Assembly: GCF_030813495.1 (NCBI RefSeq)
Contig: NZ_JAUSUI010000010.1
Span: 1 to 64,000 of the forward strand
Direction: 5' to 3'
Source: Ancylobacter polymorphus
GTDB lineage: Bacteria > Pseudomonadota > Alphaproteobacteria > Rhizobiales > Xanthobacteraceae
DNA length: 64,000 nucleotides
The notes under the pieces were generated by a model. It was not told the DNA's origin, did not search any database, and was given only the letters and a program-made list of their open reading frames with translations. Of this stretch, positions 45,789 through 63,753 are shown piece by piece. Position numbers and translations under genes: made by a program. The stretch's first letter is position 1. Each line of letters opens with the position of its first letter.

Positions 45789-46817
45789 TTACAGAACGTT
45801 CGATCGTTTCAATCGACGCCATAATTTCCTCGAGCGAAGGAGCCGCGCCGAAATCATCGCCGTCATGTTCGAATAGTCGCGGATGAGGCCGGGAACCATC
45901 TTCGGAGTCGGCACGAGCGCGAACGAGCCGGCGACGGCAGAGGCGAGGTCGTAGTCGGGCCGGTTGAAAAACATTCGCGCATGTCGGACGCAATCGGCGC
46001 CCAAGTCCGCGTCCGCGAGGGCTGTCTTGCCGGCCTCGGACGCGAGGAGGCAATGCAGGTCGTAGAAGTGGCGCGAGATGCGCTGCCCTTCCTGCCTCAG
46101 TTCGCCGCGACGCTCGAACCAGCGACGCAAGCCGTGTGCGATCACGACTTTATCCCAAAAGGTGCGCGTTGCGTCGATCGTCGTGACGTTAGGCACCAAC
46201 AGATCGAGGTCTGCGGCTTCATCTGCAATGTAAGGACTGATGTCCGCAGGATGGTTCGGATCGAGTGCCGACTTCGCTCCCGATTCAATGCGCACCGCAG
46301 GACGCACATAAGCGTCGTCACGCGGCTCAACCTCCGGATACCAGATCAGAAGCGTCTGGGCGTCGGAATCGGCCTCATCAATCGTGACGCGTCCTCGTCC
46401 TCCCGTGGCGTCGGCAAGTTGTTCAGCTAGGAACGCATGAAGTGGGCCGGTGATGAAGCTACGACAGGCGTCTCGGATCGCATCCAGTCGAGCACGACGC
46501 TTCTTGTTCGAAAGCGCTTCGAGCTCGGCGACGGAAGCGGGCTCGTCGAGATCGTCGCGAAACACTGTGACGTCGATGTCTTCGGAAAAGCGCTCGATCA
46601 GCCCATGTGCCTTGGACAGAGACGTGCCGCCCTTGAACAGCAGACGCGGCCCTCCGGCTGGCCGCTCATGATAAAGAGCGTTGAGCGTCCAACAGACCCA
46701 AAAGTCCTTCTCGACGTTTCCGATCGGCGCCCCGAGCCGGTTTGCCGTCGTCAAGAAAAGATCGAGCCTCTCGTTGGCTGGCGCGAGGATGACCTCGTTA
46801 TAGGCGGCATTGCTCAT
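45789..46817 (-). CDS. abiEii: AbiEii-type nucleotidyltransferase toxin, C-terminus frameshifted
   Basis: The toxin of a type IV AbiE toxin-antitoxin/abortive-infection system, a nucleotidyltransferase-fold protein of 342 residues as it stands. Motif I is LLFKGGTSLSKAHGLIERFS with EDIDVTVFRDDL following, the GGTSLSK and SxDxD-like residues of the family (about residues 57-90); later DKVVIAHGLRRW and YDLHCLL are typical. ATG at 46817 overlaps the antitoxin stop by 4 bases. Near 45868 a T is missing: the expected ending MIFGAAPSLEEIMASIETIE and on to a stop at 45730 is read in another frame, so the last 45 or so residues are replaced by RLLRSRKLWRRLKRSNVL. Toxicity may be lost unless this is a sequencing error. 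Confidence 0.85.
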   Translation of the reverse strand: MSNAAYNEVILAPANERLDLFLTTANRLGAPIGNVEKDFWVCWTLNALYHERPAGGPRLLFKGGTSLSKAHGLIERFSEDIDVTVFRDDLDEPASVAELEALSNKKRRARLDAIRDACRSFITGPLHAFLAEQLADATGGRGRVTIDEADSDAQTLLIWYPEVEPRDDAYVRPAVRIESGAKSALDPNHPADISPYIADEAADLDLLVPNVTTIDATRTFWDKVVIAHGLRRWFERRGELRQEGQRISRHFYDLHCLLASEAGKTALADADLGADCVRHARMFFNRPDYDLASAVAGSFALVPTPKMVPGLIRDYSNMTAMISARLLRSRKLWRRLKRSNVL

Positions 46818-47485
46818 GCGCGAGTCTCTGGCGCAGCGTCGGCGGGTCCGAGCAAAGGTCTGAGAAAATCCTGCATCCAGATCGGCATTGCCGACAGGCC
46901 TGTGCGAAGATCGTTGCAGATCTCCTTTCCATGCTCGGGATTTTTGAACAGTCTGTCGAGGCCGTTCGTTATGGCCTCCCGATCGTTGTCTCCCTCCATC
47001 ATGGCTTGTATCCAATAAAGCGCTTGAACGACCCGCATGCCCGGGCGTCCAGCCCAATAGAGACGGCTCGGCGCCGCCGCTTTGAAATGGATGACCTGCT
47101 TTCCGAGCTTGATCGGTTTCAGGCGGGCGTCGACGAGAACCTCGATGCGCGCCGGCACGGCTGTCGTGAGACCAAGATCATTCGCGGCCGTCATTCCGTC
47201 GACCACGATGCGAACCTGGTCGCGACGTGCCACAGCTCTGATCACGGCGCGATAGTCGGGGACCGCCACCTTGCCCATCAGTTTGCTCATTCGCGGCCGG
47301 TCGTAGAGCCCGCGGTCGATGCGGCGTAACTCGCCAGCCGCGACGAGACGCTGCAGCGTCTTGTCGACGGCCGAACGACTGCCGAGATCGGCGAAATCGC
47401 TCGGCGTCCATACCTCTCCAGGAGGTGCCCCGTTGATACGGGCGAGGAGCCGCGGCCGGAGGTCTATGGTCGGTTTATCAAGCAT
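46814..47485 (-). CDS. abiEi: AbiEi-type antitoxin (DUF6088)
   Basis: A 223-residue antitoxin of the AbiEi/DUF6088 type. The N-terminal winged helix (WTPSDFADLGSRSAVDKTLQ and RLVAAGELRRIDRGLYDRPR, about residues 26-64) binds DNA, and the rest (VVDGMTAANDLGLTTAVPAR, VIHFKAAAPSRLYWAGRP) is the antitoxin domain. AbiE antitoxins act as transcriptional repressors and do not bind the toxin. The ATG at 47485 sits at the edge of an inverted repeat (47485-47513), with an extra copy upstream. Another ATG 18 bases earlier would add MHHISD. Confidence 0.87.
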   Translation of the reverse strand: MLDKPTIDLRPRLLARINGAPPGEVWTPSDFADLGSRSAVDKTLQRLVAAGELRRIDRGLYDRPRMSKLMGKVAVPDYRAVIRAVARRDQVRIVVDGMTAANDLGLTTAVPARIEVLVDARLKPIKLGKQVIHFKAAAPSRLYWAGRPGMRVVQALYWIQAMMEGDNDREAITNGLDRLFKNPEHGKEICNDLRTGLSAMPIWMQDFLRPLLGPADAAPETRA

Positions 47486-48323: not shown

Positions 48324-49682
48324 TCACGACCATGTCGTCACCTCGACCTTACCCGTGGTTGCGAACCTGACGCTGGCTTCGAAGCCCGATTGCCTGCCGG
48401 GCCTCGGCGAGCGAAGCGTCAGCGGGCTGCCTATGCGCTCGGCGATGGTCGAGACGATCGACAGGCCGATCCCGCTGCCGCGAGCCGAGGTTCCGGCGCG
48501 CTCGAACCGGCCGGCGAGTTTGGCCAGCGTCTCGGGCGGGACGACGGGGCCGTCATTCGACACCGTCAGCAGCCCGCCGGGGTCGAGGGTCACTTCGACG
48601 GGCGATGACGGGCTGCCATGGCCGAGGGCGTTCTCGACGAGGTTGCGGCACACGATCCCGGCGGCGTCGGGATCGATGTCGGACATCACGGGGGTCTCGG
48701 GCACGCGCAGGGACAGCCTTTCCTCAGGCACGCTCCTGTGCATGTCGTCGATCACGAGCCGCAGGGCGTCGCGCAGGTCCGACGTCCGGTCGAGCCGAAG
48801 CCGGCCGCCCTCCGCGCGGGCGAGCTGCATGAGGCGCTCGGCGCGCGCCGTCAGCCGCTTGAGCGTGGCCTCGATGTCGGCTCCCCGCCGGGCGATGTAA
48901 GGCTCCCCGGTCTCCTTCTGGATACGCTGGGCCTGGGCGATCGCCCCGGCGAGCGGGTTCCGGAGCTCATGGGCGGTGTTGGCGGCGAGGCTGCGTTCCG
49001 ACTCGAAGGCCGCCCTGAGCCTGTCGAGCAGCGCGTTCAGCGTGGCGGCGAGCGGGGCGACCTCGCTGGGCAGGTCGTCGGAGGCGACGGGCGCGAGATC
49101 CCTCTCACTGCGGGTCTCCAGCCGTTCCCGGAACGCCCGCAGCGGCCGCATGCTCCGGCGCACCGCGAGGATGACGGCGGCGAAGGCGGCCGGGATGACC
49201 AGGAGGATCGGCAGGCCGAGGCCGATCTGGATCTCCCGCGCGACCCCGGCCTCATGGGCGAGCGGCTCCGCCACCGTGATGCGCACCGTGCCCTGCAGGG
49301 CCTCCTCGCTGTACAGGCGGTGCGTCGCGGTCCGGCCGAATCCGGGACCGCCATAGGGCGGGAAGACCGACAGGTCGGCGGCATGGGACTGGAGCAGGAC
49401 CTTGCCCTTGTCGTCGCGGACCACATAGGTGAAGAGCTCGTCATGGCCGTGGATGGCGCCGAGCCGCTGGCTGGCGACATCTCCCTCCTCGCGGCCGACG
49501 ATGTCCATGACCGCGAGGGGAAGCAGGCGCTGCGCCGTCTCCTGCAGGGAGGAATCGAAGACCTCGCCGATCTCGTGCCGCAGCAGCACGGCGGTCGTCC
49601 ATGCCGCGCCGACCCAGATCACCAGCAGCACCGCCCCGAGCGAGAGCAGGAGCCGGCCCTGGAGGCTTCGCGGGCGCCTCAT
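48324..49682 (-). CDS. Two-component sensor histidine kinase
   Basis: An inner-membrane sensor kinase of 452 residues. TM1 is near residues 11-32 (LLSLGAVLLVIWVGAAWTTA), a periplasmic sensing loop of about 130 residues follows, then TM2 (LGLPILLVIPAAFAAVILAV, about 163-183), a HAMP region, the H-box SLAANTAHELRNPLAG with the phosphorylated His, the N-box NLVENALGHG and the G-box GSGIGLSIVSTIAERI. ATG overlaps the stop of the response regulator gene (49679-49682), so the pair is one operon. The layout resembles QseC/PmrB-type kinases that often stand beside PepSY genes, and the divergent PepSY gene set is its likely target. Confidence 0.88.
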   Translation of the reverse strand: MRRPRSLQGRLLLSLGAVLLVIWVGAAWTTAVLLRHEIGEVFDSSLQETAQRLLPLAVMDIVGREEGDVASQRLGAIHGHDELFTYVVRDDKGKVLLQSHAADLSVFPPYGGPGFGRTATHRLYSEEALQGTVRITVAEPLAHEAGVAREIQIGLGLPILLVIPAAFAAVILAVRRSMRPLRAFRERLETRSERDLAPVASDDLPSEVAPLAATLNALLDRLRAAFESERSLAANTAHELRNPLAGAIAQAQRIQKETGEPYIARRGADIEATLKRLTARAERLMQLARAEGGRLRLDRTSDLRDALRLVIDDMHRSVPEERLSLRVPETPVMSDIDPDAAGIVCRNLVENALGHGSPSSPVEVTLDPGGLLTVSNDGPVVPPETLAKLAGRFERAGTSARGSGIGLSIVSTIAERIGSPLTLRSPRPGRQSGFEASVRFATTGKVEVTTWS

Positions 49683-50338
49683 GCCGCGGCCAGCCGGTAG
49701 CCGAGGCCGCGCTCGGTCTCGATCAGGTCGGCGCCGAGCTTCTTGCGCAGCCGGCTGACATGGACCTCGATCGTGTTGCTCTCCACCTCGGCATCGAAGT
49801 CGTAGAGCTTTTCCTCGAGCTGCGCCTTGGAGAGCACCTGGCCCGGCCGCGCCAGGAATGCCTCCAGCAGCGCCCATTCGCGGGCCGTGAGCTGCACCGG
49901 CCTGCCCTCCCGGCGCACGCTCCGGCGGGCGATGTCGATGTCGAGCGAATGATGCCGGATGATCGGGTTGGGATTGCCGGAATAGCGGCGGGCGACCGAG
50001 CCGATGCGCGCCGACAGTTCGTCGAGGTCGAACGGCTTGACCAGGTAGTCGTCCGCCCCGGCGATCAGGCCCTCGATCCGGTCCGACACCTGGTCGAGCG
50101 CCGTGAGGATGATGACGGGCGTGACGTTCCCCGCGGCCCGCAGGGCGCGCAGGAACACGATCCCCCTGCCGTCTGGGAGCATCAGGTCCAGCAGGATCAG
50201 GTCGTAGACGGCGCCCGCCATGGCGTCGCGGGCCGCGTCGATCCGCATGACCCAGTCGGCGGAGTGACCGTCGCCGACGATCTGGTCCCGCACGGCCGCG
50301 CCCAGCACACCGTCGTCCTCTATCAGCAGGATTCGCAT
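49679..50338 (-). CDS. Two-component response regulator, OmpR family
   Basis: A 219-residue regulator: receiver domain with the acidic pocket MRILLIEDDGVLG, phospho-acceptor Asp in DLILLDLMLPDGRG (about residue 51) and the Lys of DDYLVKPFDLDEL; then a winged-helix DNA-binding domain with LTAREWALLEAFLARPGQVL and ESNTIEVHVSRLRKKLGADL. It starts 142 bases from the divergent PepSY gene. TCAG-type direct repeats in that gap (50416-50443) may be its binding sites. Confidence 0.9.
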   Translation of the reverse strand: MRILLIEDDGVLGAAVRDQIVGDGHSADWVMRIDAARDAMAGAVYDLILLDLMLPDGRGIVFLRALRAAGNVTPVIILTALDQVSDRIEGLIAGADDYLVKPFDLDELSARIGSVARRYSGNPNPIIRHHSLDIDIARRSVRREGRPVQLTAREWALLEAFLARPGQVLSKAQLEEKLYDFDAEVESNTIEVHVSRLRKKLGADLIETERGLGYRLAAA

Positions 50339-50415
50339 CGTGGTTCGCCTTTCGCGGCTCCTGCTTCCTTGACGGTCTTTCCTTACGCGGCGCTGAAGCG
50401 GATCGCATGCGAGCT

Positions 50416-50443
50416 TCAGGATGCCGTCAGCTTCGCCCTCCAG
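50416..50443 (+). promoter_or_regulatory. Candidate OmpR-type direct repeats in the divergent promoter
   Basis: TCAG words at 50416-50419 and 50427-50430 and a variant CCAG at 50440-50443 recur at 11 and 13 bases within CTTCAGGAT, GTCAGCTTC and CCAGGCTT. OmpR-family regulators bind direct repeats about one helical turn apart. The evidence is only spacing and position between the regulator and PepSY genes. Confidence 0.3.
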
Positions 50444-50480: not shown

Positions 50481-50795
50481 ATGCGGCTCGCTCTGACAAT
50501 TCTCGCATGTATCGCGATCCTCCCGGTGGGGCAGGCGCTCGCCGACGACGACTGCTTCGTGCCGATGGCGGACTGGAAGCCGAAGGAGGCCGTCGCCGCC
50601 CTCGCCGCCCGGAACGGCTGGACGGTGCGCCGGATCAAGATCGACGACGGCTGCTACGAGATCGACGGCACGGACGCCGAAGGCCAGCGGATCGAGGTGA
50701 CGGTCCATCCCTCCACCCTCGACGTCCTCGAGATCGAGCGCAAGGACGGCTCCGGCCGCCGGCGCCGCGACGGGGAGGATCGCGGCGGCGATTGA
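50481..50795 (+). CDS. Exported PepSY-domain protein
   Basis: A 104-residue protein with a Sec signal (MRLALTILACIAILPVGQAL to about ALA, residue 21) and one PepSY_2-type unit: MADWKPKEAVAALAARNGWT, VRRIKIDDGCYEIDGTDAEG and VTVHPSTLDVLEIERKDGSG. Two Cys (CFVPM and GCYEI) could form a disulfide. The C-terminus is Arg/Asp-rich. Start at the ATG before the signal. Such proteins are commonly divergent from a two-component system and precede membrane PepSY flavoproteins, as here. Role unknown, perhaps a sensor or inhibitor at the periplasmic face. Confidence 0.82.
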   Translation: MRLALTILACIAILPVGQALADDDCFVPMADWKPKEAVAALAARNGWTVRRIKIDDGCYEIDGTDAEGQRIEVTVHPSTLDVLEIERKDGSGRRRRDGEDRGGD

Positions 50796-50864: not shown

Positions 50865-50961
50865 ATTCCTGACGGCAGGCTGAAGCAGAAAATCCGTTTG
50901 CGTCAGGAACGGATCAGGCAGGGCGCCCAGAACGGCTTCAGCAGAGAAAGGAGACCCTGCC

Positions 50962-51300
50962 ATGAGAAAGACCCTTGCCATCCTCTTCGCCTCGACCGCC
51001 CTGACCGCCGGGATCGGCTTTCCCGCCTGGAGCGCGATGCACGAGGCCGCCCGCTTCGAAGGGCTGCGCGACGCCGTCCTCGATGCCGGCCGGGATCTCG
51101 GCGTGGTGCTGGCCAGCGACGATGACGACGACCGCGACCATGGACGCCAGCTCCGGCATGGGGACGACGACGAAGACGACGATGACGACGACGATTTCCA
51201 CGGCGGCAGCGTCTCCGCACCGGCTCCGGCGGGCAGCGTCGCTCCCCCGAACAACGGCCTCTTCGGCAACGGCGCGACGCCCAAGGCGCAGGTGAACTGA
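50962..51300 (+). CDS. Exported aspartate-rich small protein
   Basis: A 112-residue protein with a Sec signal (MRKTLAILFASTALTAGIGF to about WSA). Residue groups DDDDDRDH and, after RQLRHG, DDDEDDDDDDDF give a highly acidic centre with interspersed His, followed by a Pro/Ala/Ser linker and NNGLFGNGATPKAQVN. AAGGAG lies a few bases before the ATG. The acid-rich stretch could bind cations such as Fe, Cu or Ca; no family is recognised. It lies between the PepSY and DUF2271 genes in the same orientation. Confidence 0.75.
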   Translation: MRKTLAILFASTALTAGIGFPAWSAMHEAARFEGLRDAVLDAGRDLGVVLASDDDDDRDHGRQLRHGDDDEDDDDDDDFHGGSVSAPAPAGSVAPPNNGLFGNGATPKAQVN

Positions 51301-51342: not shown

Positions 51343-51813
51343 ATGAGAAGCATCCTCGCCGCCCTGGCGCTGACCACGGCGCTCACGCTTCCCGGCATCG
51401 CCATGGCGCGGCCGGTGACCCTGACCACGACGCTGAAGAACTATGGCGGCAACGGCGCCTACCTCGCCATCTACGTCACCGATCCGAAGGGGGCCTATGC
51501 CGGCAGCCTGTGGATGGCGGGCACCAAGTCCAAATACTACGGGCACCTGTCCGACTGGTATCGCGCGACCGGCGGCAACACCGCCGAGATCAACGGCATC
51601 ACCGGGGCGAGCGTCGGGGCGGGCCGCCAGCTGGCGATCACCCTCGACCTCGCCGATGCGCTCTTCGACGCCGGCTACACGCTCCATGTCGATGCGGCGG
51701 TCGAGGACATGCGCGACAGCCCCAACGAGATCGCCGTGCCGCTGACCGCGAAGGGCGCGGGACAGCCCGTCCAGGGCCGCCGCTACATCGCGAATTTCAG
51801 CTACGGCATGTAG
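51343..51813 (+). CDS. Exported DUF2271 protein, candidate flavinylated electron carrier
   Basis: A 156-residue protein: signal peptide MRSILAALALTTALTLPGIA then MARPVTLTTTLKNYGGNGAY, LAIYVTDPKGAYAGSLWMAG and HLSDWYRATGGNTAEINGIT-GAS, the DUF2271 pattern. The motif ITGAS (residues 86-90) resembles the S/T-G-A-T/S sites to which ApbE attaches FMN, and an ApbE gene lies two genes downstream. It is therefore a candidate periplasmic flavoprotein receiving electrons from the membrane PepSY reductase encoded next. The stop is 10 bases before that gene. Confidence 0.8.
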   Translation: MRSILAALALTTALTLPGIAMARPVTLTTTLKNYGGNGAYLAIYVTDPKGAYAGSLWMAGTKSKYYGHLSDWYRATGGNTAEINGITGASVGAGRQLAITLDLADALFDAGYTLHVDAAVEDMRDSPNEIAVPLTAKGAGQPVQGRRYIANFSYGM

Positions 51814-51822
51814 GGGACGAGC

Positions 51823-54030
51823 ATGCTCCGCGCCCTCCATCGCTGGCCGGGCCTGCTGGCCCTCGCCCTCGTGACGCTGCTCGCGGTGAGCGGCGCGGCG
51901 CTGTCCGTCTTCCCGGCGGCGGAACGGATCGCCGCGCCGCAGGCGGAGGAGGCCATGAGCGTGGCCGACCTCGCCACGCGCATCCGGTCCGCCCATCCGG
52001 GAGTCGAGCAGATCAGGCGCGCGCCCTCCGGGCGCATCACCGCCTACTGGTTCGACGGCGGCACGCCGGGTTCCGCGGTCATCGACCCGGCGACCGGAGC
52101 CGGCGTGGCTTCGGCCGATCCCAACCCGCTCCAGCGCTGGCTCACCAATCTGCACCGCTCGCTGTTGCTGGACGATGCCGGCCGCATCGTCATGGCGGCG
52201 GGGGCCGCGGCGATGCTCGTCCTCGCCGTCTCCGGCCTTGCGCTGGTCGCGCGGCGCGTGGGCGGATGGCGACGCTGGCTGGCGCCGCTGCGCGGACCTC
52301 TGGCCGGGCGTGTCCATGTCGAGCTTGCGCGGGCCGCCGTGCTCGGCCTCCTGCTGACGTCGGCGACGGCGCTCTGGATGACGGCCTCGACCTTCGGCTT
52401 CCTTCCCGACGAGGGCCCCCCTCCGGAACTGCCTTCTGCGGTGAGCGGGAGGGTCGGCGCTCCGCTGGCCTCCATGCCGCGGCTCGCCGCGACGCCCGTC
52501 TCGAACCTGCACGAGCTGAGCTTCCCCTATCCCGACGACGCCACCGACGTCTTCACGCTCAAGACCGGCGACGGCGTCGGCTATCTCGACCAGGGCACCG
52601 GGGCGACGCTCGGCTGGGCGGAGCCGAGCGGCTGGGAGCGGATCTCGGAGACCGTCTACATGCTCCACACCGGGCAGGGCGCCCCGCTTCTCGGCCTGCT
52701 GCTCGGGCTCACGGCGCTCGGCGTCCCGGCGATGGGCGTCACGGGGCTCTCCATCTGGCTGGCGGGCCGCGCCGGTCGCCCCAGGATCCGCGACAACGCC
52801 GCGCCGGGCCGCGCGGAGACGATCATCCTCGTCGGCAGCGAAGGCGGCAGCAGCTGGGGATTCGCCGCGACGCTGCACGCGGCGCTGACCCGCGCCGGGC
52901 AGCGCGTCCATGCTGCGCCGATGTCGGCGTTCGACCCCGCCCGCTTTTCCGGGGCGCGGCGCTACCTCGTGCTGGCCGCGACCTATGGCGACGGCGACGC
53001 ACCCGCTTCGGCCAAGGGATTCCTCGACCGCCTGGACCGGCTTTCCGCCGTGCCGGCCGCGCCGGTGGCGGTGCTGGGCTTCGGCGACCGGAGCTTTCCG
53101 GCCTTCTGCGCCTATGCCAAGTCGGTCGCCGCCGCGGCGGAAACCAAGGGCTGGCGGCTCCTGCTGCCCTTCGAGACGGTGGACCGCCAGTCGCCGCAGG
53201 AATTCGCGCGCTGGGGCCGCGCGCTGGGCGAGGCGCTCGGCATCGCGCTGGAGCTCGACCACCAGCCCGTCCGGCCCGCGACGAGCACGCTCACCCTCAT
53301 CTCACGCCGCGACTATGGCCACGACGTCCAGGCTCCCACCGCCATCCTGCGCTTCGCGCTGCCGCGCCTCTGCCTATGGCAGCGCCTGACGGGGCAGGGA
53401 TTTGCCCGCTTCGAGGCCGGGGACCTCATCGGCATCGTGCCGGAGGGATCGCCCATGCCTCGCCTCTATTCGCTCGCCTCGGGCCGCCGGGACGGCTTCG
53501 TGGAGATCGTGGTGCGCAAGCATGTCGGCGGCCTCTGCTCGAGCGCGCTCACGACGCTGGAGCCCGGCGGGACGGTCGCCGCCTTCATCCGCCGCAATCC
53601 CGGCTTCCACGCGGCCCGCGACCGCACGCCCCTGATCCTGATCGGCGCCGGCACCGGAATCGGGCCGCTTGCCGGCTTCATCCGTGCGAACGCCTCGCGG
53701 CGCCCGATCCACCTGTTCTTCGGCATGCGGCATCCCGACAGCGACTTCCTCTATCGCGAGGAGCTGGAAGGCTGGGCGGCCGGGGGCCGGCTCCGCCATC
53801 TGTCCACGGCGGTCTCGCGCGGAACCCGGCCGCGCCATGTCCAGGATGCGCTCGTCGCCGACCAGCCCGAAATCGTCCGCGCGATCCGGGAAGGGGCGCG
53901 TGTCATGGTCTGCGGCGGGCGGCAGATGGCGGCAGGCGTCGCCGAGGCGATGACGCGGATATTGCAGCCGCTCGGCCTGTCTGCCGAAATCCTCAAGGCG
54001 GAGGGACGCTATGTCGAGGACGTCTACTGA
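51823..54030 (+). CDS. Membrane PepSY protein fused to flavodoxin and FAD/NADPH reductase
   Basis: A 735-residue fusion. Residues 1-320 are a PepSY-TM region: a first span LLALALVTLLAVSGAALSVF, periplasmic loop, and further spans including LLGLLLGLTALGVPAMGVTG. About 330-465 is a flavodoxin-like FMN domain (ILVGSEGGSSWGFAATLHAA, VLAATYGDGDAPASAKGFLD, VLGFGDRSFPAF). About 500-735 is a sulfite-reductase/P450-reductase-type FAD and NADPH module (PRLYSLASGRRDGFVEIVVR, LIGAGTGIGPLAGFI, MVCGGRQMAAGVAEAM). It would carry electrons from cytoplasmic NADPH through FAD and FMN to the membrane PepSY part and on to periplasmic acceptors. It overlaps apbE by 20 bases. Confidence 0.88.
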   Translation: MLRALHRWPGLLALALVTLLAVSGAALSVFPAAERIAAPQAEEAMSVADLATRIRSAHPGVEQIRRAPSGRITAYWFDGGTPGSAVIDPATGAGVASADPNPLQRWLTNLHRSLLLDDAGRIVMAAGAAAMLVLAVSGLALVARRVGGWRRWLAPLRGPLAGRVHVELARAAVLGLLLTSATALWMTASTFGFLPDEGPPPELPSAVSGRVGAPLASMPRLAATPVSNLHELSFPYPDDATDVFTLKTGDGVGYLDQGTGATLGWAEPSGWERISETVYMLHTGQGAPLLGLLLGLTALGVPAMGVTGLSIWLAGRAGRPRIRDNAAPGRAETIILVGSEGGSSWGFAATLHAALTRAGQRVHAAPMSAFDPARFSGARRYLVLAATYGDGDAPASAKGFLDRLDRLSAVPAAPVAVLGFGDRSFPAFCAYAKSVAAAAETKGWRLLLPFETVDRQSPQEFARWGRALGEALGIALELDHQPVRPATSTLTLISRRDYGHDVQAPTAILRFALPRLCLWQRLTGQGFARFEAGDLIGIVPEGSPMPRLYSLASGRRDGFVEIVVRKHVGGLCSSALTTLEPGGTVAAFIRRNPGFHAARDRTPLILIGAGTGIGPLAGFIRANASRRPIHLFFGMRHPDSDFLYREELEGWAAGGRLRHLSTAVSRGTRPRHVQDALVADQPEIVRAIREGARVMVCGGRQMAAGVAEAMTRILQPLGLSAEILKAEGRYVEDVY

Positions 54031-54985
54031 GCTCGCCCGGCACGCTCTCAACGGCCCGACGATGGGGACCCGCTGGTCCGCGCTCTTCCACGCTCCCGCC
54101 GGCTTCGACGCCGGGACCGTTCGGTCGGCCCTGCAGGCGGCGGTGGACGAGGTCGATGCGCAGATGTCGACATGGAAGCCCGACAGCGAGCTGATGCGCC
54201 TGAACGGGACTCCGGCGGGGCAATGGGTGAGCGTTCCGGCACGCCTTCTGGATGTGCTCCGGCTGGGGCTGGCGATCGGTCGCGCCTCCGGCGGCGCATT
54301 CGACATCGGCATGGGCGACGCGGTCATCGCGTGGGGCTTCGGCGCCGCGCAAGCGAGCCCGAACCGCATCCGCAGCGCAATAAAGGCCCGGCGCGTGCCC
54401 GCCCATGACGCGCTCGAAATCGATGGAACGAGGGTCCGCAAGCGCGTGCCGATCACGCTCGACCTCAACGGCATCGCCAAGGGATATGGCGTGGACCGTC
54501 TCGCCGGCGTGCTCGGCAGCTTCGGCATCCGCGACGGGCTCGTCGGCATCGACGGCGAGATGCGCGCCATGGGCCTGAGGCCCGACGGCGAGGCCTGGAC
54601 GGTCGCGGTGGAGCAGCCGGACCCTGAGCGTCGCGCCCCGCATTCGCTGCTGTCGCTGGAGGATTGCGCCGTCGCCACCTCCGGCGACTACCGCCACTGG
54701 ATCGACGTTCAGGGCCGGAACCTCTCCCACACCATGGACCCCGCCCGCGGCGCCCCGCTTGCGCAATCTCCGGCTTCGGTCACCGTGCTCGCGCCGACAT
54801 GCGCGGAAGCCGATGCCTGGGCGACCGCGCTGATGGTGCTCGGCGCCGACGACGGCGGGGAACTCGCCCGGCGGCTGGGGATCGATGCCCTGTTCCTGCT
54901 TCGCGGCGCCTGTGGCATCCGTTCCTGTGGGACCGGACGCCTGTTCGGGGACGTAACGATGGCGGTTCGGGCGTGGGGAGGTTGA
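54011..54985 (+). CDS. apbE: FAD:protein FMN transferase (ApbE)
   Basis: A 324-residue ApbE-type enzyme that attaches FMN from FAD to Thr or Ser in partner proteins. GPTMGTRWSALFHAP is the N-terminal motif, SGGAFDIGMGDAVIAWGFG follows, LDLNGIAKGYGVDRLAGVLG is the core flavin-binding signature, and DYRHWIDVQGRNLSHTMDPA is the metal and substrate region. No lipoprotein or Sec signal is evident, so it may act in the cytoplasm or be an unusual form; ApbE proteins are normally exported. It overlaps the flavoprotein gene and probably modifies the DUF2271 protein. Confidence 0.9.
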   Translation: MSRTSTELARHALNGPTMGTRWSALFHAPAGFDAGTVRSALQAAVDEVDAQMSTWKPDSELMRLNGTPAGQWVSVPARLLDVLRLGLAIGRASGGAFDIGMGDAVIAWGFGAAQASPNRIRSAIKARRVPAHDALEIDGTRVRKRVPITLDLNGIAKGYGVDRLAGVLGSFGIRDGLVGIDGEMRAMGLRPDGEAWTVAVEQPDPERRAPHSLLSLEDCAVATSGDYRHWIDVQGRNLSHTMDPARGAPLAQSPASVTVLAPTCAEADAWATALMVLGADDGGELARRLGIDALFLLRGACGIRSCGTGRLFGDVTMAVRAWGG

Positions 54986-54988
54986 ACG

Positions 54989-55237
54989 GTGGTGGAGCAT
55001 TCGAACGGGGACAGGCTGAAGATCGCTCTGCTGCTGGTGGGGCTCGGCGGCCTCGTGACCGGCCTCGTCCTCCATGTCGCGGGAAGGCCGGATCTCGCGC
55101 AGACTGTCTGGTTCGCGGGCGTCGTTCCTATCCTCGCCGCGCTGCTGGTGGAGATCCTGCGCAGCCTTGATACGTCGCCATCCGCATTGGCCCCTGCCGC
55201 CACGCAAACCAGCCTTCCAGGAGTGCATCCGAAATGA
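54989..55237 (+). CDS. Small membrane protein, resembles the N-terminus of a P1-type ATPase
   Basis: An 82-residue protein with two hydrophobic segments (LLLVGLGGLVTGLVLHVAGR and TVWFAGVVPILAALLVEILR). The pattern GRPDLAQTVWFAGVVPILAA followed by LLVEILRSL is what I remember from the first two spans of some heavy-metal translocating P-type ATPases, but the chain ends where the rest of such an ATPase should follow. It may be a truncated ATPase or a small protein in its own right. Starts with GTG, 3 bases after apbE; the stop overlaps the next ATG by 4 bases. Confidence 0.5.
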   Translation: MVEHSNGDRLKIALLLVGLGGLVTGLVLHVAGRPDLAQTVWFAGVVPILAALLVEILRSLDTSPSALAPAATQTSLPGVHPK

Positions 55238-55935
55238 GCCGTCTTTCGCATTCGGAAATCCATATGATCCACCGGATCGGCTGGCTCCGCGCCGCGGTGC
55301 TCGGTGCCAATGATGGGATCGTCTCGACGTCAAGCCTCGTCGTCGGCGTGGCGGCGGCCGGATCGGGATCGACCGAGATCCTGATCGCGGGACTGGCCGG
55401 CCTCGTGGCGGGTGCGATGTCGATGGCCGCCGGTGAATATGTCTCGGTCAGCTCCCAGACGGACGCCGAGAACGCCGACCTCGCCCGCGAGAGACGCGAG
55501 CTTGCCGAGATACCCGATGCGGAGCTGGAGGAACTGACGCAGATCTACGTCGACAGGGGGCTCGACCGCACGCTGGCGGAACAGGTCGCCGCGCAGCTGA
55601 CGGAACGCGACGCCTTAGGAGCCCATGCGCGTGACGAACTCGGCATCTCCGAGACCGTCGCCGCCCGCCCGGTACAGGCGGCCATCATCTCGGCGCTCAC
55701 CTTTGCGGCGGGAGCGGTCGTGCCGGTGCTCGTCGCCCTGGTGTCGCCCGCCGAAAGGACAAGCGTCCTGGTCGCGGCCTCGACGCTCGTGGCGCTGGCC
55801 ATCCTGGGCGGCCTCGGCGCCACCGCCGGAGGAGCCGGCGTGGTGCGCGGGGCCCTTCGCGTCACCTTCTGGGGTGCGCTCGCCATGGGCGTGACCGCCG
55901 CGGTCGGGATGATCTTCGGGGTTCAGGCCGGATAG
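55234..55935 (+). CDS. VIT/CCC1-family Fe2+/Mn2+ transporter
   Basis: A 233-residue member of the vacuolar iron transporter family. WLRAAVLGANDGIVSTSSLV and VVGVAAAGS form the first span region, GAMSMAAGEYVSVSSQTDAE the second, then a cytoplasmic helical domain rich in Glu (ERRELAEIPDAELEELTQIY) that binds metal, and three C-terminal spans. Eukaryotic relatives store iron and manganese; bacterial ones are thought to export or handle these metals. It overlaps the previous gene by 4 bases, so it belongs to the apbE-containing transcript. Confidence 0.88.
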   Translation: MSRLSHSEIHMIHRIGWLRAAVLGANDGIVSTSSLVVGVAAAGSGSTEILIAGLAGLVAGAMSMAAGEYVSVSSQTDAENADLARERRELAEIPDAELEELTQIYVDRGLDRTLAEQVAAQLTERDALGAHARDELGISETVAARPVQAAIISALTFAAGAVVPVLVALVSPAERTSVLVAASTLVALAILGGLGATAGGAGVVRGALRVTFWGALAMGVTAAVGMIFGVQAG

Positions 55936-56055
55936 CGAGCCTTCCGTCCACGACCTCGTCCCTCTCGCATGGTCGCCTCCGCCTTGAGGCCGCTCAATGC
56001 GGCAGGCAGGCGCCGGATGTCTGTTTCGCGAGCCTACCCGAGGAAAGTCGAAGAC

Positions 56056-57411
56056 ATGCGACACATCAAGCTGGCGCTTTTGGCCATCCTCGTCCTCATC
56101 TCCGTGCTGTGGATCGCGGCAGAGCCGGAGGTGTTCCGGTCGAGCGGCTTCTTCGCGGCGCGAGCGGCCGCCGTGCAATATACCGGCGCCCTCGCGATCA
56201 CGGCCATGAGCGTGGCGATGCTGCTCGCGCTGCGCCCGCGCTGGCCCGAACGCTGGATGGGCGGGCTCGACAAGATGTACCGCCTCCACAAATGGCTCGG
56301 CATCACCGCGCTCGTCGTCGCCATCGTCCATTGGCTGTGGGCGCAGGGGCCGAAATGGGCGGTGGGCTGGGGTCTTCTGGAACGGCCGGTACGCGGCGGC
56401 CCCCGCCCGGTCCCCGCCAACCCGGTGGAAGCCCTGTTCTCGAGCCTGCGCGGCACTGCCGAGGGCATCGGCGAATGGGCCTTCTATGCCGCCGTGGTGC
56501 TGATCGCGCTGGCGCTGATCCGCGCCTTTCCCTACCGCTGGTTCTACAAGACCCACCGCCTGCTGGCCCTCGCCTATCTGGTGCTGGCGTTCCACGCGGC
56601 GGTGCTGCTGGATTTCGCCGACTGGATGACGCCGCTCGGCGTGGCGACGGCCCTGCTCCTGGCCGGCGGCGCCTATGCGGCCGGGATCGTGCTGCTGCGC
56701 CGCGTGGGCGCCGGGCGACAAGTGACGGGGCGGATCGCCGAGTTCAAATACTATCCGGGCGTGAAGGCGCTCGAAACCATCATCGATGTGCCCAGGGGCT
56801 GGCCAGGGCATCGGGCGGGCCAGTTCGCCTTCGCCATGTCGGACGCGTCCGAAGGCGCGCATCCCTACACCATCGCCTCCGGCTGGCACCCTGACCATCC
56901 GCGGATCGCCTTCATCACCAAGGAGCTGGGCGACCACACCGGCCGACTGCGCGAGAAGCTGCGCGCCGGCCAGGAGGTGCGGGTGGAAGGACCCTATGGC
57001 TGCTTCACCTTCGACGACGCTTGCCGCCGCCAGATCTGGATCGGCGGCGGCATCGGCATCACGCCGTTCATCGCCCGGATGAAGCACATGGCCCTGCGCG
57101 GCGACGCGCCCGACTGGCCGGAAGGCCAGACGGCGGACCTGTTCCATACCACCACCGATGTGGACGAGGTCGCGCTGGCGAAGCTCGCGCATGACGCGCG
57201 GGCCGCCGATGTGCGCCTGCATCTCCTGATCAGCGCCCGCGATGGCCGGCTCACCGGCGCCCGCATCCGGGAGGAGGTGCCGGACTGGCGCGAGGCGAGC
57301 ATCTGGTTCTGCGGTCCCGCCGGCTTCGGGGCCGCGCTGCGGCGGGACTTCGCCGCCCAGGGCTTTCCGGTCGAGGAGCGCTTCCATCAGGAACTGTTCG
57401 ACATGCGGTGA
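56056..57411 (+). CDS. Ferric-reductase-like transmembrane flavocytochrome
   Basis: A 451-residue FRE/NOX-type membrane oxidoreductase. A signal-like first span is followed by a ferric-reductase domain with heme-ligand His candidates in KMYRLHKWLG, VAIVHWLWAQ, YKTHRLLALAYL and AFHAAVLL (about residues 75-190). Then comes an FAD domain with HPYTIAS and an NAD(P) domain with IWIGGGIGITPFIARMKHMA and the end WFCGPAGFGAALRRDF. Start at the ATG of MRHIKLALL. It moves electrons from NAD(P)H across the membrane, probably for metal reduction. It lies about 120 bases after the VIT gene in the same direction. Confidence 0.87.
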   Translation: MRHIKLALLAILVLISVLWIAAEPEVFRSSGFFAARAAAVQYTGALAITAMSVAMLLALRPRWPERWMGGLDKMYRLHKWLGITALVVAIVHWLWAQGPKWAVGWGLLERPVRGGPRPVPANPVEALFSSLRGTAEGIGEWAFYAAVVLIALALIRAFPYRWFYKTHRLLALAYLVLAFHAAVLLDFADWMTPLGVATALLLAGGAYAAGIVLLRRVGAGRQVTGRIAEFKYYPGVKALETIIDVPRGWPGHRAGQFAFAMSDASEGAHPYTIASGWHPDHPRIAFITKELGDHTGRLREKLRAGQEVRVEGPYGCFTFDDACRRQIWIGGGIGITPFIARMKHMALRGDAPDWPEGQTADLFHTTTDVDEVALAKLAHDARAADVRLHLLISARDGRLTGARIREEVPDWREASIWFCGPAGFGAALRRDFAAQGFPVEERFHQELFDMR

Positions 57412-58403: not shown

Positions 58404-59909
58404 ATGAACCGTCGTGATTTTCTTCACGGCCTGATGACCGGCGCCGCGGCGCTCGGCACATCGGCCGCCGCTTTTCCAATCCGCTCATGGGCGCAAGCCG
58501 GCGCCCCGGACCGCTCCATGGAGCCGCTGGCACTGCCCCGGCGTCTCGCCATCGTCCATCGCACGATCGAGGTCAGTGGCAAGGCTGCGCGCGTGTTCGG
58601 CCTGACCCAGCCGGACGGGACGCCGGGCCTGACGCTCGACGCCGGCAGCAGCTTCGATGTCGCGCTCACCAACGAGATCGACGAGCCGACCCTGATCCAC
58701 TGGCACGGCCTGACGCCGCCTTGGGCGATGGATGGCGTGCCGGACAATCCGGCGGCGCTTCTGCGCCCTTCCGAAGTGCGCCGCTACAGCTTCCCGGTTG
58801 GAGCCGGCGGCACGCACTGGATGCACGCCCATACGCTGCAGGAGCAGAATCTGCTCGCCGCCCCGATGATCGTGCGGACGGCGGAGGAGATGCGGCTCGA
58901 CGAGCAGGAGGTTGTGATCCTGCTGCACGACTTCTCCTTCACGCCCGCGGAGGAACTGCTGGCCAGCCTCAAGGCGGGCACTTCCTCGACCGGCGGGATG
59001 CTGATGGACCATGGCGCCATGGGCCACGGCGAGGTGATGCCAGCGATGGGCATGCAGCAAACGATGCAGGGTGGCATGCCCGGCGCGTCGATGCCCGGCG
59101 GCGCCATGGCCGGGATGGATCTCAACGACATCGACTACGATGCCTACCTCGCCAACGACCGCACGCTCGACGATCCTCAGGTCGTGACGGTCGAGAAAAG
59201 CGGCCGCGTGCGTCTGCGCCTCATCAATGGCGCGACCGCCACGGCCTTCACCATCGATACCGGGAGCCTCTCCGGCCAGCTGGTCGCGGTTGACGGCCGG
59301 CTGGTGCAGCCGCTCGGGGGCCGATCATTCCCGATCAGCATGGGCCAGCGGCTGGATATCCGCCTGACGCTGCCTGCGGCGGGCGGCGCGCATCCCATCC
59401 TTGCACTGCGTGAAGGCGGTTCGGAGCGGACCGGCATCATCCTCGCCTCCGCCGGAGCGCGTATCGGCAAGGTCGCCACGGTCGGCGAGCAGAAGGGACC
59501 GGTCGTCGGGCTCGATCTGGAGCCGCGGCTGCGCGCCGTCGCTCCGCTAGCGGAGCGCAACGCCGCCCGCCGCTTCGCGCTTGTGCTGAGCGGAAACATG
59601 GCCGGCTACAGCTGGGGGATCGGCGGCGCCGATGCTCTGGCCGTGAAGCGTGGCGAGCGCATCGAGATGCTTCTGCGGAACATGTCGATGATGGCGCATC
59701 CGATGCACCTGCACGGCCATCATTTTCAGGTCGTCGACATCAACGGGACCAGGCTCGCCGGCGCCGTGCGCGACACGGTCGTGGTGCCGCCGATGGCAGC
59801 CGTGACCATTGCCTTCGACGCCGACAATCCCGGGCGCTGGCCGCTGCACTGCCACCACCTCTACCACATGGCGACCGGCATGATGGCCTTCGTCGGCTAC
59901 GCGTCCTGA
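58404..59909 (+). CDS. Multicopper oxidase, Tat-exported (copper-tolerance type)
   Basis: A 501-residue three-cupredoxin multicopper oxidase. The N-terminus MNRRDFLHGLMTGAAALGTS is a Tat signal. Copper ligands are seen in IHWHGLTPP, GTHWMHAHTLQEQ, MAHPMHLHGHHFQVV and WPLHCHHLYHMATGMM, the four type 2/3 segments and the type 1 site. A Met/Gly/His-rich insert HGAMGHGEVMPAMGMQQTMQ with more Met behind it (about residues 195-235) resembles the methionine-rich segments of CueO/CopA that take up Cu(I). It would oxidise Cu(I) in the periplasm. Confidence 0.9.
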   Translation: MNRRDFLHGLMTGAAALGTSAAAFPIRSWAQAGAPDRSMEPLALPRRLAIVHRTIEVSGKAARVFGLTQPDGTPGLTLDAGSSFDVALTNEIDEPTLIHWHGLTPPWAMDGVPDNPAALLRPSEVRRYSFPVGAGGTHWMHAHTLQEQNLLAAPMIVRTAEEMRLDEQEVVILLHDFSFTPAEELLASLKAGTSSTGGMLMDHGAMGHGEVMPAMGMQQTMQGGMPGASMPGGAMAGMDLNDIDYDAYLANDRTLDDPQVVTVEKSGRVRLRLINGATATAFTIDTGSLSGQLVAVDGRLVQPLGGRSFPISMGQRLDIRLTLPAAGGAHPILALREGGSERTGIILASAGARIGKVATVGEQKGPVVGLDLEPRLRAVAPLAERNAARRFALVLSGNMAGYSWGIGGADALAVKRGERIEMLLRNMSMMAHPMHLHGHHFQVVDINGTRLAGAVRDTVVVPPMAAVTIAFDADNPGRWPLHCHHLYHMATGMMAFVGYAS

Positions 59910-60960: not shown

Positions 60961-61626
60961 ACGGATCGCCCGCCTACGGTCTCTGGAGCCTGGTGATCAT
61001 CAACTCGGCGGTGTTCATCCTGTTCGCCGCGAGCTTTACCCGCCTCGACAGCAAACGGGACTGGCGCTCGCTCGGCGCCTTCTCGGCCTTCATCGTTGCG
61101 CTGTTCACCGAGATGTACGGGTTCCCGCTGACGATCTATCTGCTGTCGGGATGGCTCGGGCGGCAATTCCCGGGCATCGACTTCTGGTCGCACGACGCCG
61201 GCCATCTCCTGGAGATGATGTTCGGCTGGCGGGTGACCCCGCATTTCGGCCCGTTCCACATCCTCAGCTACGTCCTGATCTTTGGTGGCTTCTGGCTGCT
61301 CGCGGCGAGCTGGCATCGGCTCTACGCAGCCCAACGCGACCATCGCCTCGCCACCGAGGGATCCTATGCCCATGTCCGGCATCCCCAGTATCTGGCCTTC
61401 ATCGTCATCATGGTCGGGTTCCTGTTGCAGTGGCCGACGCTGGTGACGCTCCTGATGTTCCCGATCCTGGTCATCGTCTATGTGCGGCTGGCCCGAAGGG
61501 AGGAGACCGCAGCGCGGGCCGAGTTCGGCACAGCCTGGGACGCCTATGCACGCTCGGTCCCGGGCTTCATCCCCCGGCTCGGGCACGCCCCCTCGGCGAA
61601 GTTTCCGACGCAGGGAGGTGCGGCTC

Positions 61627-61634
<8 letters not shown>
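60957..61634 (+). CDS. Isoprenylcysteine carboxyl methyltransferase-family membrane protein
   Basis: A 225-residue membrane protein with about five spans and the C-terminal ICMT/PEMT motif [20 protein letters not shown], which binds S-adenosylmethionine, then [20 protein letters not shown], ending [10 protein letters not shown]. Bacterial members of this family are frequent in metal resistance clusters, where their substrate is unknown since bacteria lack prenylated proteins of the eukaryotic type. Coupled to DUF2933 (ATGA) and overlapping the ATPase gene by 8 bases. Confidence 0.85.

Positions 61635-63753
<2,119 letters not shown>

Follow-up and report, generated by a model that had tools for sequence, protein, structure and literature searches.

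A conserved DUF2271, PepSY reductase and ApbE locus of Ancylobacter polymorphus, a predicted transmembrane electron relay whose ApbE lacks a recognisable export signal

The stretch of DNA analyzed here, called the window, comprises 64,000 nucleotides of Ancylobacter polymorphus (contig NZ_JAUSUI010000010.1, positions 1 to 64,000). It contains three core genes, which encode a DUF2271 protein, a reductase with a PepSY_TM membrane part, and ApbE, which transfers flavin mononucleotide (FMN) from flavin adenine dinucleotide (FAD) to proteins. A sequence-only reading had placed these genes at 51343-54985 and had proposed that they form an electron pathway from nicotinamide adenine dinucleotide phosphate (NADPH) across the membrane to a DUF2271 protein with a covalent flavin, controlled by a divergent two-component system. 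The genes were found as claimed, and the Pfam cut-offs were passed with the exception of FAD_binding_6 in the reductase (18.1 versus 21.1 bits). The conserved unit is larger than had been described. A kinase, a response regulator, a PepSY_2 protein and an aspartate-rich protein belong to it, and often also a metal ATPase, a VIT transporter and a ferric-reductase-type protein (Table 1).

Table 1. Genes and sites of the locus in the window
Feature	Coordinates	Strand	Evidence
Sensor histidine kinase (2CSK_N, HAMP, HisKA, HATPase_c; QseC/PmrB-like)	48324..49682	-	Pfam, NCBIfam
OmpR-type response regulator (PmrA/QseB-like)	49679..50338	-	Pfam; PmrA 199.5 bits, below the cut-off of 330
Putative operator TTCAG-N6-GTCAG, gap between regulator and PepSY_2 genes	50415..50430	+	Site in this gap in 72/77 loci
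Small exported PepSY_2 protein, probable periplasmic kinase modulator	50481..50795	+	Pfam 86.2 bits
Second putative operator, ahead of the Asp-rich and DUF2271 genes	50869..50884	-	Site between PepSY_2 and DUF2271 genes in 69/77 loci
Small exported Asp-rich protein, putative metal binder	50962..51300	+	Leader and run of Asp; no Pfam match
DUF2271 protein, Sec-type leader, predicted FMN carrier	51343..51813	+	PF10029 122.5 bits, cut-off 27.3
TGAS flavinylation motif, residues 87-90, Ser90 predicted FMN site	51601..51612	+	80/80 relatives
PepSY_TM (two haems predicted)-flavodoxin-FAD/NADPH reductase fusion	51823..54030	+	Pfam, structure model, His conservation
ApbE (FAD:protein FMN transferase), export signal not recognisable	54011..54985	+	PF02424 255.2 bits, cut-off 25.6
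Remnant (N-terminal part) of a P1B-type metal ATPase with an internal deletion	54989..55234	+	52.5% identity to the first 59 residues of the L052 ATPase
VIT-family Fe/Mn transporter	55234..55935	+	PF01988 226.8 bits
Second membrane reductase, Ferric_reduct domain and FNR-type C-terminal part	55969..57411	+	PF01794 68.6 bits

One scan of named genomes yielded 399 relatives of the DUF2271 protein, and the best 80 loci were kept for the counts. The sample thus leans to close alphaproteobacterial relatives, and contig ends depress several of the neighbour-gene counts. The nearest of the 80 relatives was that of Ancylobacter dichloromethanicus (L058; 96% for the DUF2271 protein). Loci like that of the window were named type B, and Caulobacter-like loci with a more distant ApbE and reductase type A; this division is our own. 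The reductase was recovered in all 80 loci and a linked ApbE in 77. ApbE was not found in L106, and L118 and L134 break off within the reductase. The reductase is split in L120, and a 2.6-kb gap separates it from ApbE in L127.

The DUF2271 product, read from the start at 51343, has 156 residues, and the ITGAS sequence noted before at residues 86-90 includes the TGAS motif. TGAS was kept in all 80 relatives, and it was no part of the scan patterns that had collected them. A lack of conservation, which would have refuted the sequence-only reading, was therefore not seen. Because [ST]GA[ST] arises in 4.3% of 200,000 shuffles of the mature sequence, the motif alone is weak evidence, and it is the conservation that gives it meaning. 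Ser90 should be the FMN target; here we take the last serine or threonine of the motif to be the modified residue, by analogy with NqrC-type sites. Export was likewise indicated, as a leader with an AxA site was present in 78 of 78 scored relatives (hydropathy 1.67 to 2.46). Neither a sequence search against the PDB (best E value 0.15) nor a fold search (best E value 0.019, none at 0.001) gave a clear match, and the viral contigs searched held no DUF2271 relative. The whole genome of the window (G000, 4.71 Mb) contains one DUF2271 protein and one ApbE. Flavinylation of a DUF2271 protein by ApbE has been shown experimentally for A. ursilacus (PMC8238504).

The reductase has 735 residues and contains PepSY_TM (PF03929, 116.1 bits), Flavodoxin_1 (47.1 bits) and NAD_binding_1 (49.3 bits) domains. 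Its structure model had a mean predicted local distance difference test score of 86, and residues 326-735 matched human P450 reductase (3qe2; Z 30.3, root mean square deviation 4.8, 392 aligned residues). The FMN, FAD and NADPH motifs were conserved across 38 aligned reductases, in agreement with the fused NADPH-FAD-FMN reductase that had been postulated. In the membrane part, His6, His111, His165 and His282 (window numbering) were invariant in 77 of 77 full-length reductases, fitting a two-haem core of the FoxB type. FoxB was not in the list of the fold search with the full reductase, which the P450-reductase domain had filled, and for this reason the membrane part was queried by sequence profile; its top PDB match was FoxB (7abw, E value 4e-4 overall). 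The evidence thus supports a DUF2271 system with covalent flavin and an NADPH/FAD/FMN membrane reductase, as had been claimed, whereas the membrane step should be amended to a predicted passage over two haems. FMN, FAD and NADPH domains are common to the diflavin enzymes NADPH-cytochrome P450 reductase and sulfite reductase; here a transmembrane PepSY domain is added. FoxB, HiuB and CrpH also have haem-ligating histidines in the PepSY_TM core (PMC13001220, PMC13038864, PMC11334425). They are described in these sources as siderophore or putative copper reductases, whereas the core seen here continues into a P450-reductase-type module and has DUF2271 as its partner. A second PepSY_TM gene with a stronger Pfam match (219 bits) was seen in the window genome at G000:C4:153276-154388, on a contig other than that of ApbE and DUF2271.

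The sequence-only reading had not remarked that an export signal is not recognisable in the linked ApbE. The protein matched PDB entry 5mgy (E value 2.2e-57), and G15, M18, T20, W55, G154, K157, D162, D181, G225, Y227, H240 and D268 were identical in 77 of 77 linked ApbEs (T272 in 76). In the window only 14 residues precede the conserved GPTMGT, and no hydrophobic stretch is found ahead of the fold. The same was true for the relatives. By hydropathy and by eye, 77 of 77 linked ApbEs had no recognisable export leader, and 75 of them had exactly 14 residues ahead of GxTMGT. Hydropathy in this region peaked at 1.05, whereas no DUF2271 leader scored below 1.67. In the L095 protein a value of 2.12 is reached within the first 45 residues, but the stretch concerned lies inside the fold, past GETMGT, and the final scoring was thus confined to the residues ahead of the motif.

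Loci beyond the 80 gave a similar picture. The linked ApbE was leaderless in 12 of 12 further type B loci, in 14 alphaproteobacterial loci (13 of type A and L051), with L045 and L046 being borderline, and in 13 of 14 type A loci of other classes, the last one being a lipoprotein (L245). No ApbE match was obtained for L047, and no matches whatsoever for L229. In a tree of 83 ApbEs, all 52 linked ones fell together with four others into one clade of 56 rows (support 100/99). The leader label changed three times on this tree, compared to a mean of 25.2 in shuffles; the labels of L045 and L046 (leaderless) and of L179 (leader) are unsure.

ApbE copies were counted in 42 type B genomes, with that of L063 left out. 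In seven of them (G280, G385, G389, G404, G408, G410 and G416) the leaderless ApbE was the sole match; a completeness is stated for G280 alone and is 99%. G420 has one ApbE and a fragment of 61 residues. FMN_bind, NqrB/RnfD and DUF3570 gave no match in the window genome and these seven. In eight genomes, thus, the only ApbE found is leaderless, and DUF2271 is the only one found of the four substrate families searched. As this only substrate found is exported, the simplest reading is that the flavin is attached before export. FMN is therefore probably bound to DUF2271 in the cytosol, and Sec could plausibly translocate a chain that bears FMN. Export of DUF2271 by the Tat pathway, which would reconcile its location with a cytosolic ApbE, was rejected, because none of the 78 relatives scored has RR within its first 12 residues.

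The regulation proposed in the sequence-only reading was also examined. Of the 80 loci, 75 have a minus-strand kinase gene within 7 kb, 77 a regulator gene on the strand opposite to the operon, and 79 a PepSY_2 gene. Two scores of the kinase were below threshold, namely HAMP (24.7 bits, cut-off 25) and QseC (153.5 bits, cut-off 475). The conserved element in the gap between the regulator and PepSY_2 genes was condensed to the direct repeat TTCAG-N6-GTCAG, which has a spacing of 11 bp. In 1.48 Mb, 191 of 214 such sites fall between the regulator and DUF2271, while six control spacings gave 2-18 sites each. The window has these two sites and no others, whereas 0.10 would be expected; one shuffle in 100 likewise had two. 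The window genome contains exactly two copies of a longer form, CTTCAG-N2-TGCCGTCAG, both of them at this locus, and one more with a mismatch; a reversed control pattern had one match. Outside the class of the window the exact operator was present in L224, L225, L251 and L252. Conserved repeats at both promoters support that a dedicated regulator, the divergent two-component system, controls the operon.

The PepSY_2 protein would probably tune the kinase from the periplasm, by analogy with DbfQ. DbfQRS of Vibrio cholerae also includes a small exported PepSY protein encoded beside a kinase/regulator pair (PMC12714742). The difference is that DbfRS controls biofilm, and a redox operon is not mentioned in that source as far as it covers the system.

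The remaining neighbours may relate to metals. A relative of the Asp-rich protein was present in 65 of the 80 loci. For most of the 13 sequences inspected, the conserved C-terminal tail past the acidic run reads PAPAGxVAPPxNGLFGxGAxPxVQVN. Comparison of the ATPase remnant with the full-length gene of L058 gave two blastn blocks that skip about 1.7 kb, and the VIT gene follows directly. In 34 of 34 ATPases of relatives that were read, LVVATPCPLILAVP and QE[VAL]ID were found; TPC(P) and QExxD membrane motifs are what we take to be the marks of P1B-5 pumps, a definition that was not found in the literature text. For the second membrane reductase, FNR-type NCBIfam matches stayed below the cut-off, and a relative was present in 19 of the 80 loci.

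The locus as a whole is probably a metal-responsive transmembrane electron relay with a covalent-flavin DUF2271 protein. The kinase and regulator, probably tuned by PepSY_2, would act at the repeats, as the conserved sites suggest, and would switch the operon on. On the cytosolic side, the reductase would pass electrons from NADPH via FAD to FMN, and from there they would cross two bis-His haems of the PepSY_TM part. They would then reach the periplasmic DUF2271 protein and its covalent FMN on Ser90, as homology and conservation indicate. The leaderless ApbE would have attached this FMN in the cytosol, most likely ahead of Sec export. The reduced flavin would finally deliver electrons to a metal in the periplasm. 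Fe(III), weakly favoured, is the most likely acceptor, and this step is the weakest of the model. The metal setting would come from the VIT transporter, the Asp-rich protein and the P1B ATPase in those loci that have it intact.

Several observations weigh against this model. The ATPase is broken in the window itself, and a P-type ATPase was found near 38 and a VIT gene near 36 of the 80 loci, both being numbers that contig ends lower. The L058 ATPase scores above the threshold for TIGR01512, a cadmium family (455.7 versus 313.5), which speaks for Zn/Cd over Fe. The FoxB match is weak per stretch (E values 0.8 to 1), and while His6, His111 and His282 align to histidines of 7abw, His165 does not. 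The exact operator is absent from the type B loci L057, L219, L223, L253 and L254. Finally, haem, flavin and electron flow are all things that we infer.

The strongest competitor of the metal-responsive relay is that the proteins, regulation aside, form a ferrireductase for iron uptake like that of Caulobacter crescentus. We regard this as possible, but not as probable. The CCNA_03155-03159 locus of that species contains the same protein classes, i.e., DUF2271, ApbE and a sulfite-reductase-like flavoprotein/PepSY-like system, and is implicated in periplasmic iron reduction; it is a Fur target, and mutants suffer under ethylenediaminetetraacetate (PMC12004947, PMC3751524). FoxB-type PepSY proteins are, moreover, described as ferri-siderophore reductases (PMC13001220). 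In contrast to the present locus, that of Caulobacter is Fur-regulated and, according to the same two sources, has a DUF4198 gene. A search of 32 type A loci, 407 kb in all, gave no TTCAG-N6-GTCAG repeat (Fur sites were searched in neither type), and its presence here indicates a branch distinct from the Fur-controlled Caulobacter locus. The operator thus marks a separately regulated branch, which occurs also on plasmids. The tables of the annotated plasmid loci, which are incomplete, do not include a TonB receptor. The neighbours, VIT and the P1B ATPase, also speak against uptake. MbfA contains a VIT domain. It is described as an iron exporter and PfVIT as an Fe2+/H+ exchanger (PMC5309874), and Nia, the one studied P1B-5 pump, has been linked to Ni and Fe (PMC4932525), whereas VIT1 was interpreted by Méheust et al. 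as a partner in uptake (PMC8238504).

The next alternative concerns the place of flavinylation. ApbE could get to the periplasm by an unrecognised route and flavinylate DUF2271 there, in which case the missing leader would be mechanistically meaningless. We hold this to be rather unlikely, although several points favour it over attachment in the cytosol. Most characterised ApbEs are secreted (PMC12052999), and five type B loci outside the class of the window (L224, L225, L251, L252 and L255) show no linked ApbE. In nine genomes with DUF2271 and no linked ApbE, 11 of 13 ApbEs were examined (L268 and L269 were left out), and all had leaders; DUF2271 can thus presumably also be flavinylated in the periplasm. 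In addition, all leader calls were made by hydropathy and eye and not by a trained predictor. Against a periplasmic ApbE stand the absence of a leader in every linked copy and the nearly invariant length ahead of GxTMGT. A misplaced start that conceals a leader is excluded for the window, because an in-frame stop is located at 53951, 20 codons upstream of the ATG. It is also unlikely for the relatives, as a stop lies 5 codons upstream in 61 of 77 and within 20 codons in 67 of 77; in the ten with longer open frames nothing hydrophobic was found within 60 residues. Furthermore, leaders have been retained in paralogues. Twenty other ApbEs of type B genomes were hand-picked from a larger list, and 18 had Tat-, Sec- or lipoprotein-type leaders, while L177 had none and L179 was not examined.

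Attachment of FMN before export thus remains the preferred reading. Its extension to the whole clade, namely that the leaderless ApbE flavinylates DUF2271 in the cytosol, that Sec then exports the product, and that this route serves a two-component-controlled metal electron relay which is also carried on plasmids, is advanced only tentatively, a little short of an even chance. A cytosolic, signal-peptide-free ApbE is also described for Klebsiella, where it acts on fumarate reductase; that substrate is a soluble cytoplasmic enzyme, whereas here it is exported (PMC12052999). The same review of 2025 calls the delivery of FAD to non-cytosolic ApbE obscure. Cytosolic flavinylation, if true, bypasses delivering FAD to the periplasm, and the clade of leaderless ApbEs with exported substrates suggests an answer to this question: the flavin is attached inside, and the finished protein is exported. 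No report of a leaderless ApbE with an exported DUF2271 protein was found in the literature searched, though the tables of PMC8238504 may hold such data unremarked. Flavinylation before export is the part worth an experiment, and it is testable in Escherichia coli with two genes.

For the electron acceptor, copper or another oxidised periplasmic target in place of iron was also considered, and was judged improbable. A multicopper oxidase (58404-59909) and a CPH-motif P-ATPase (61480-63753), likely a copper-resistance cluster, are encoded downstream in the window, and copper reduction has been proposed as the role of CrpH, a PepSY_TM protein (PMC13038864). However, these window genes fall outside the conserved unit, and no copper-named gene is listed in the incomplete tables of the annotated plasmid loci. 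Very improbable is, lastly, that a cytosolic ApbE modifies the reductase at TGAT259 or merely supplies FMN to its flavodoxin domain: the two genes share 20 nucleotides (54011-54030) and TGAT is present at about position 259 of the window reductase, but it was found at 258 or 259 in 12 of 77 reductases (including L058) and any [ST]GA[ST] in 18 of 77, at varying positions, compared to 80 of 80 DUF2271 proteins, so that a second flavinylation site was rejected.

The core of the relay is already known. Méheust et al. (2021) described a PepSY-like system in which a PepSY_TM protein, often with an NAD-binding domain, clusters with ApbE and with DUF2271 proteins that contain [ST]GA[ST], and VIT1 is part of some clusters (167 of 3220 reported; PMC8238504). 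The window agrees with this description, as its PepSY_TM gene lies beside that of ApbE and its DUF2271 protein carries the motif. Novel are the two-component control, the leaderless ApbE and also the carriage on plasmids. In comparison with what that source describes, the present loci have in addition a divergent two-component system with a conserved operator, the small PepSY_2 and Asp-rich proteins, and, in about half of the cases, a P1B ATPase. DUF4198 was not present among nine window proteins scanned.

DUF2271 relatives were found in 97 plasmid records, 71 of which were typed as conjugative; 38 of the 97 come from one genus, Pseudosulfitobacter. The plasmid loci extend to Cupriavidus, Marinobacter, Klebsiella, Citrobacter and Raoultella. 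Three of them (L251, L252 and L255, on Klebsiella, Marinobacter and Raoultella plasmids) comprise kinase, regulator, ferric-reductase protein, PepSY, DUF2271, PepSY reductase and VIT. They adjoin phosphonate-transport genes, and a phosphonate dehydrogenase is listed in L251 and L255. The Raoultella locus is close to a class 1 integron with resistance genes. As the branch occurs on plasmids, including this one, the inducing metal is worth finding.

A variant was seen in L225, which has kinase, regulator, PepSY_2, the ferric-reductase-type protein and DUF2271, but no match to the PepSY reductase. This suggests that DUF2271 can work with the second membrane reductase as well. On a Ponticoccus plasmid (L053, 8459-10663) the PepSY reductase has an internal stop codon, and no coding sequence is listed. 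In the window itself, the gene at 45789-47057 on the minus strand encodes an AbiEii-type nucleotidyltransferase toxin (type IV toxin-antitoxin family, Pfam).

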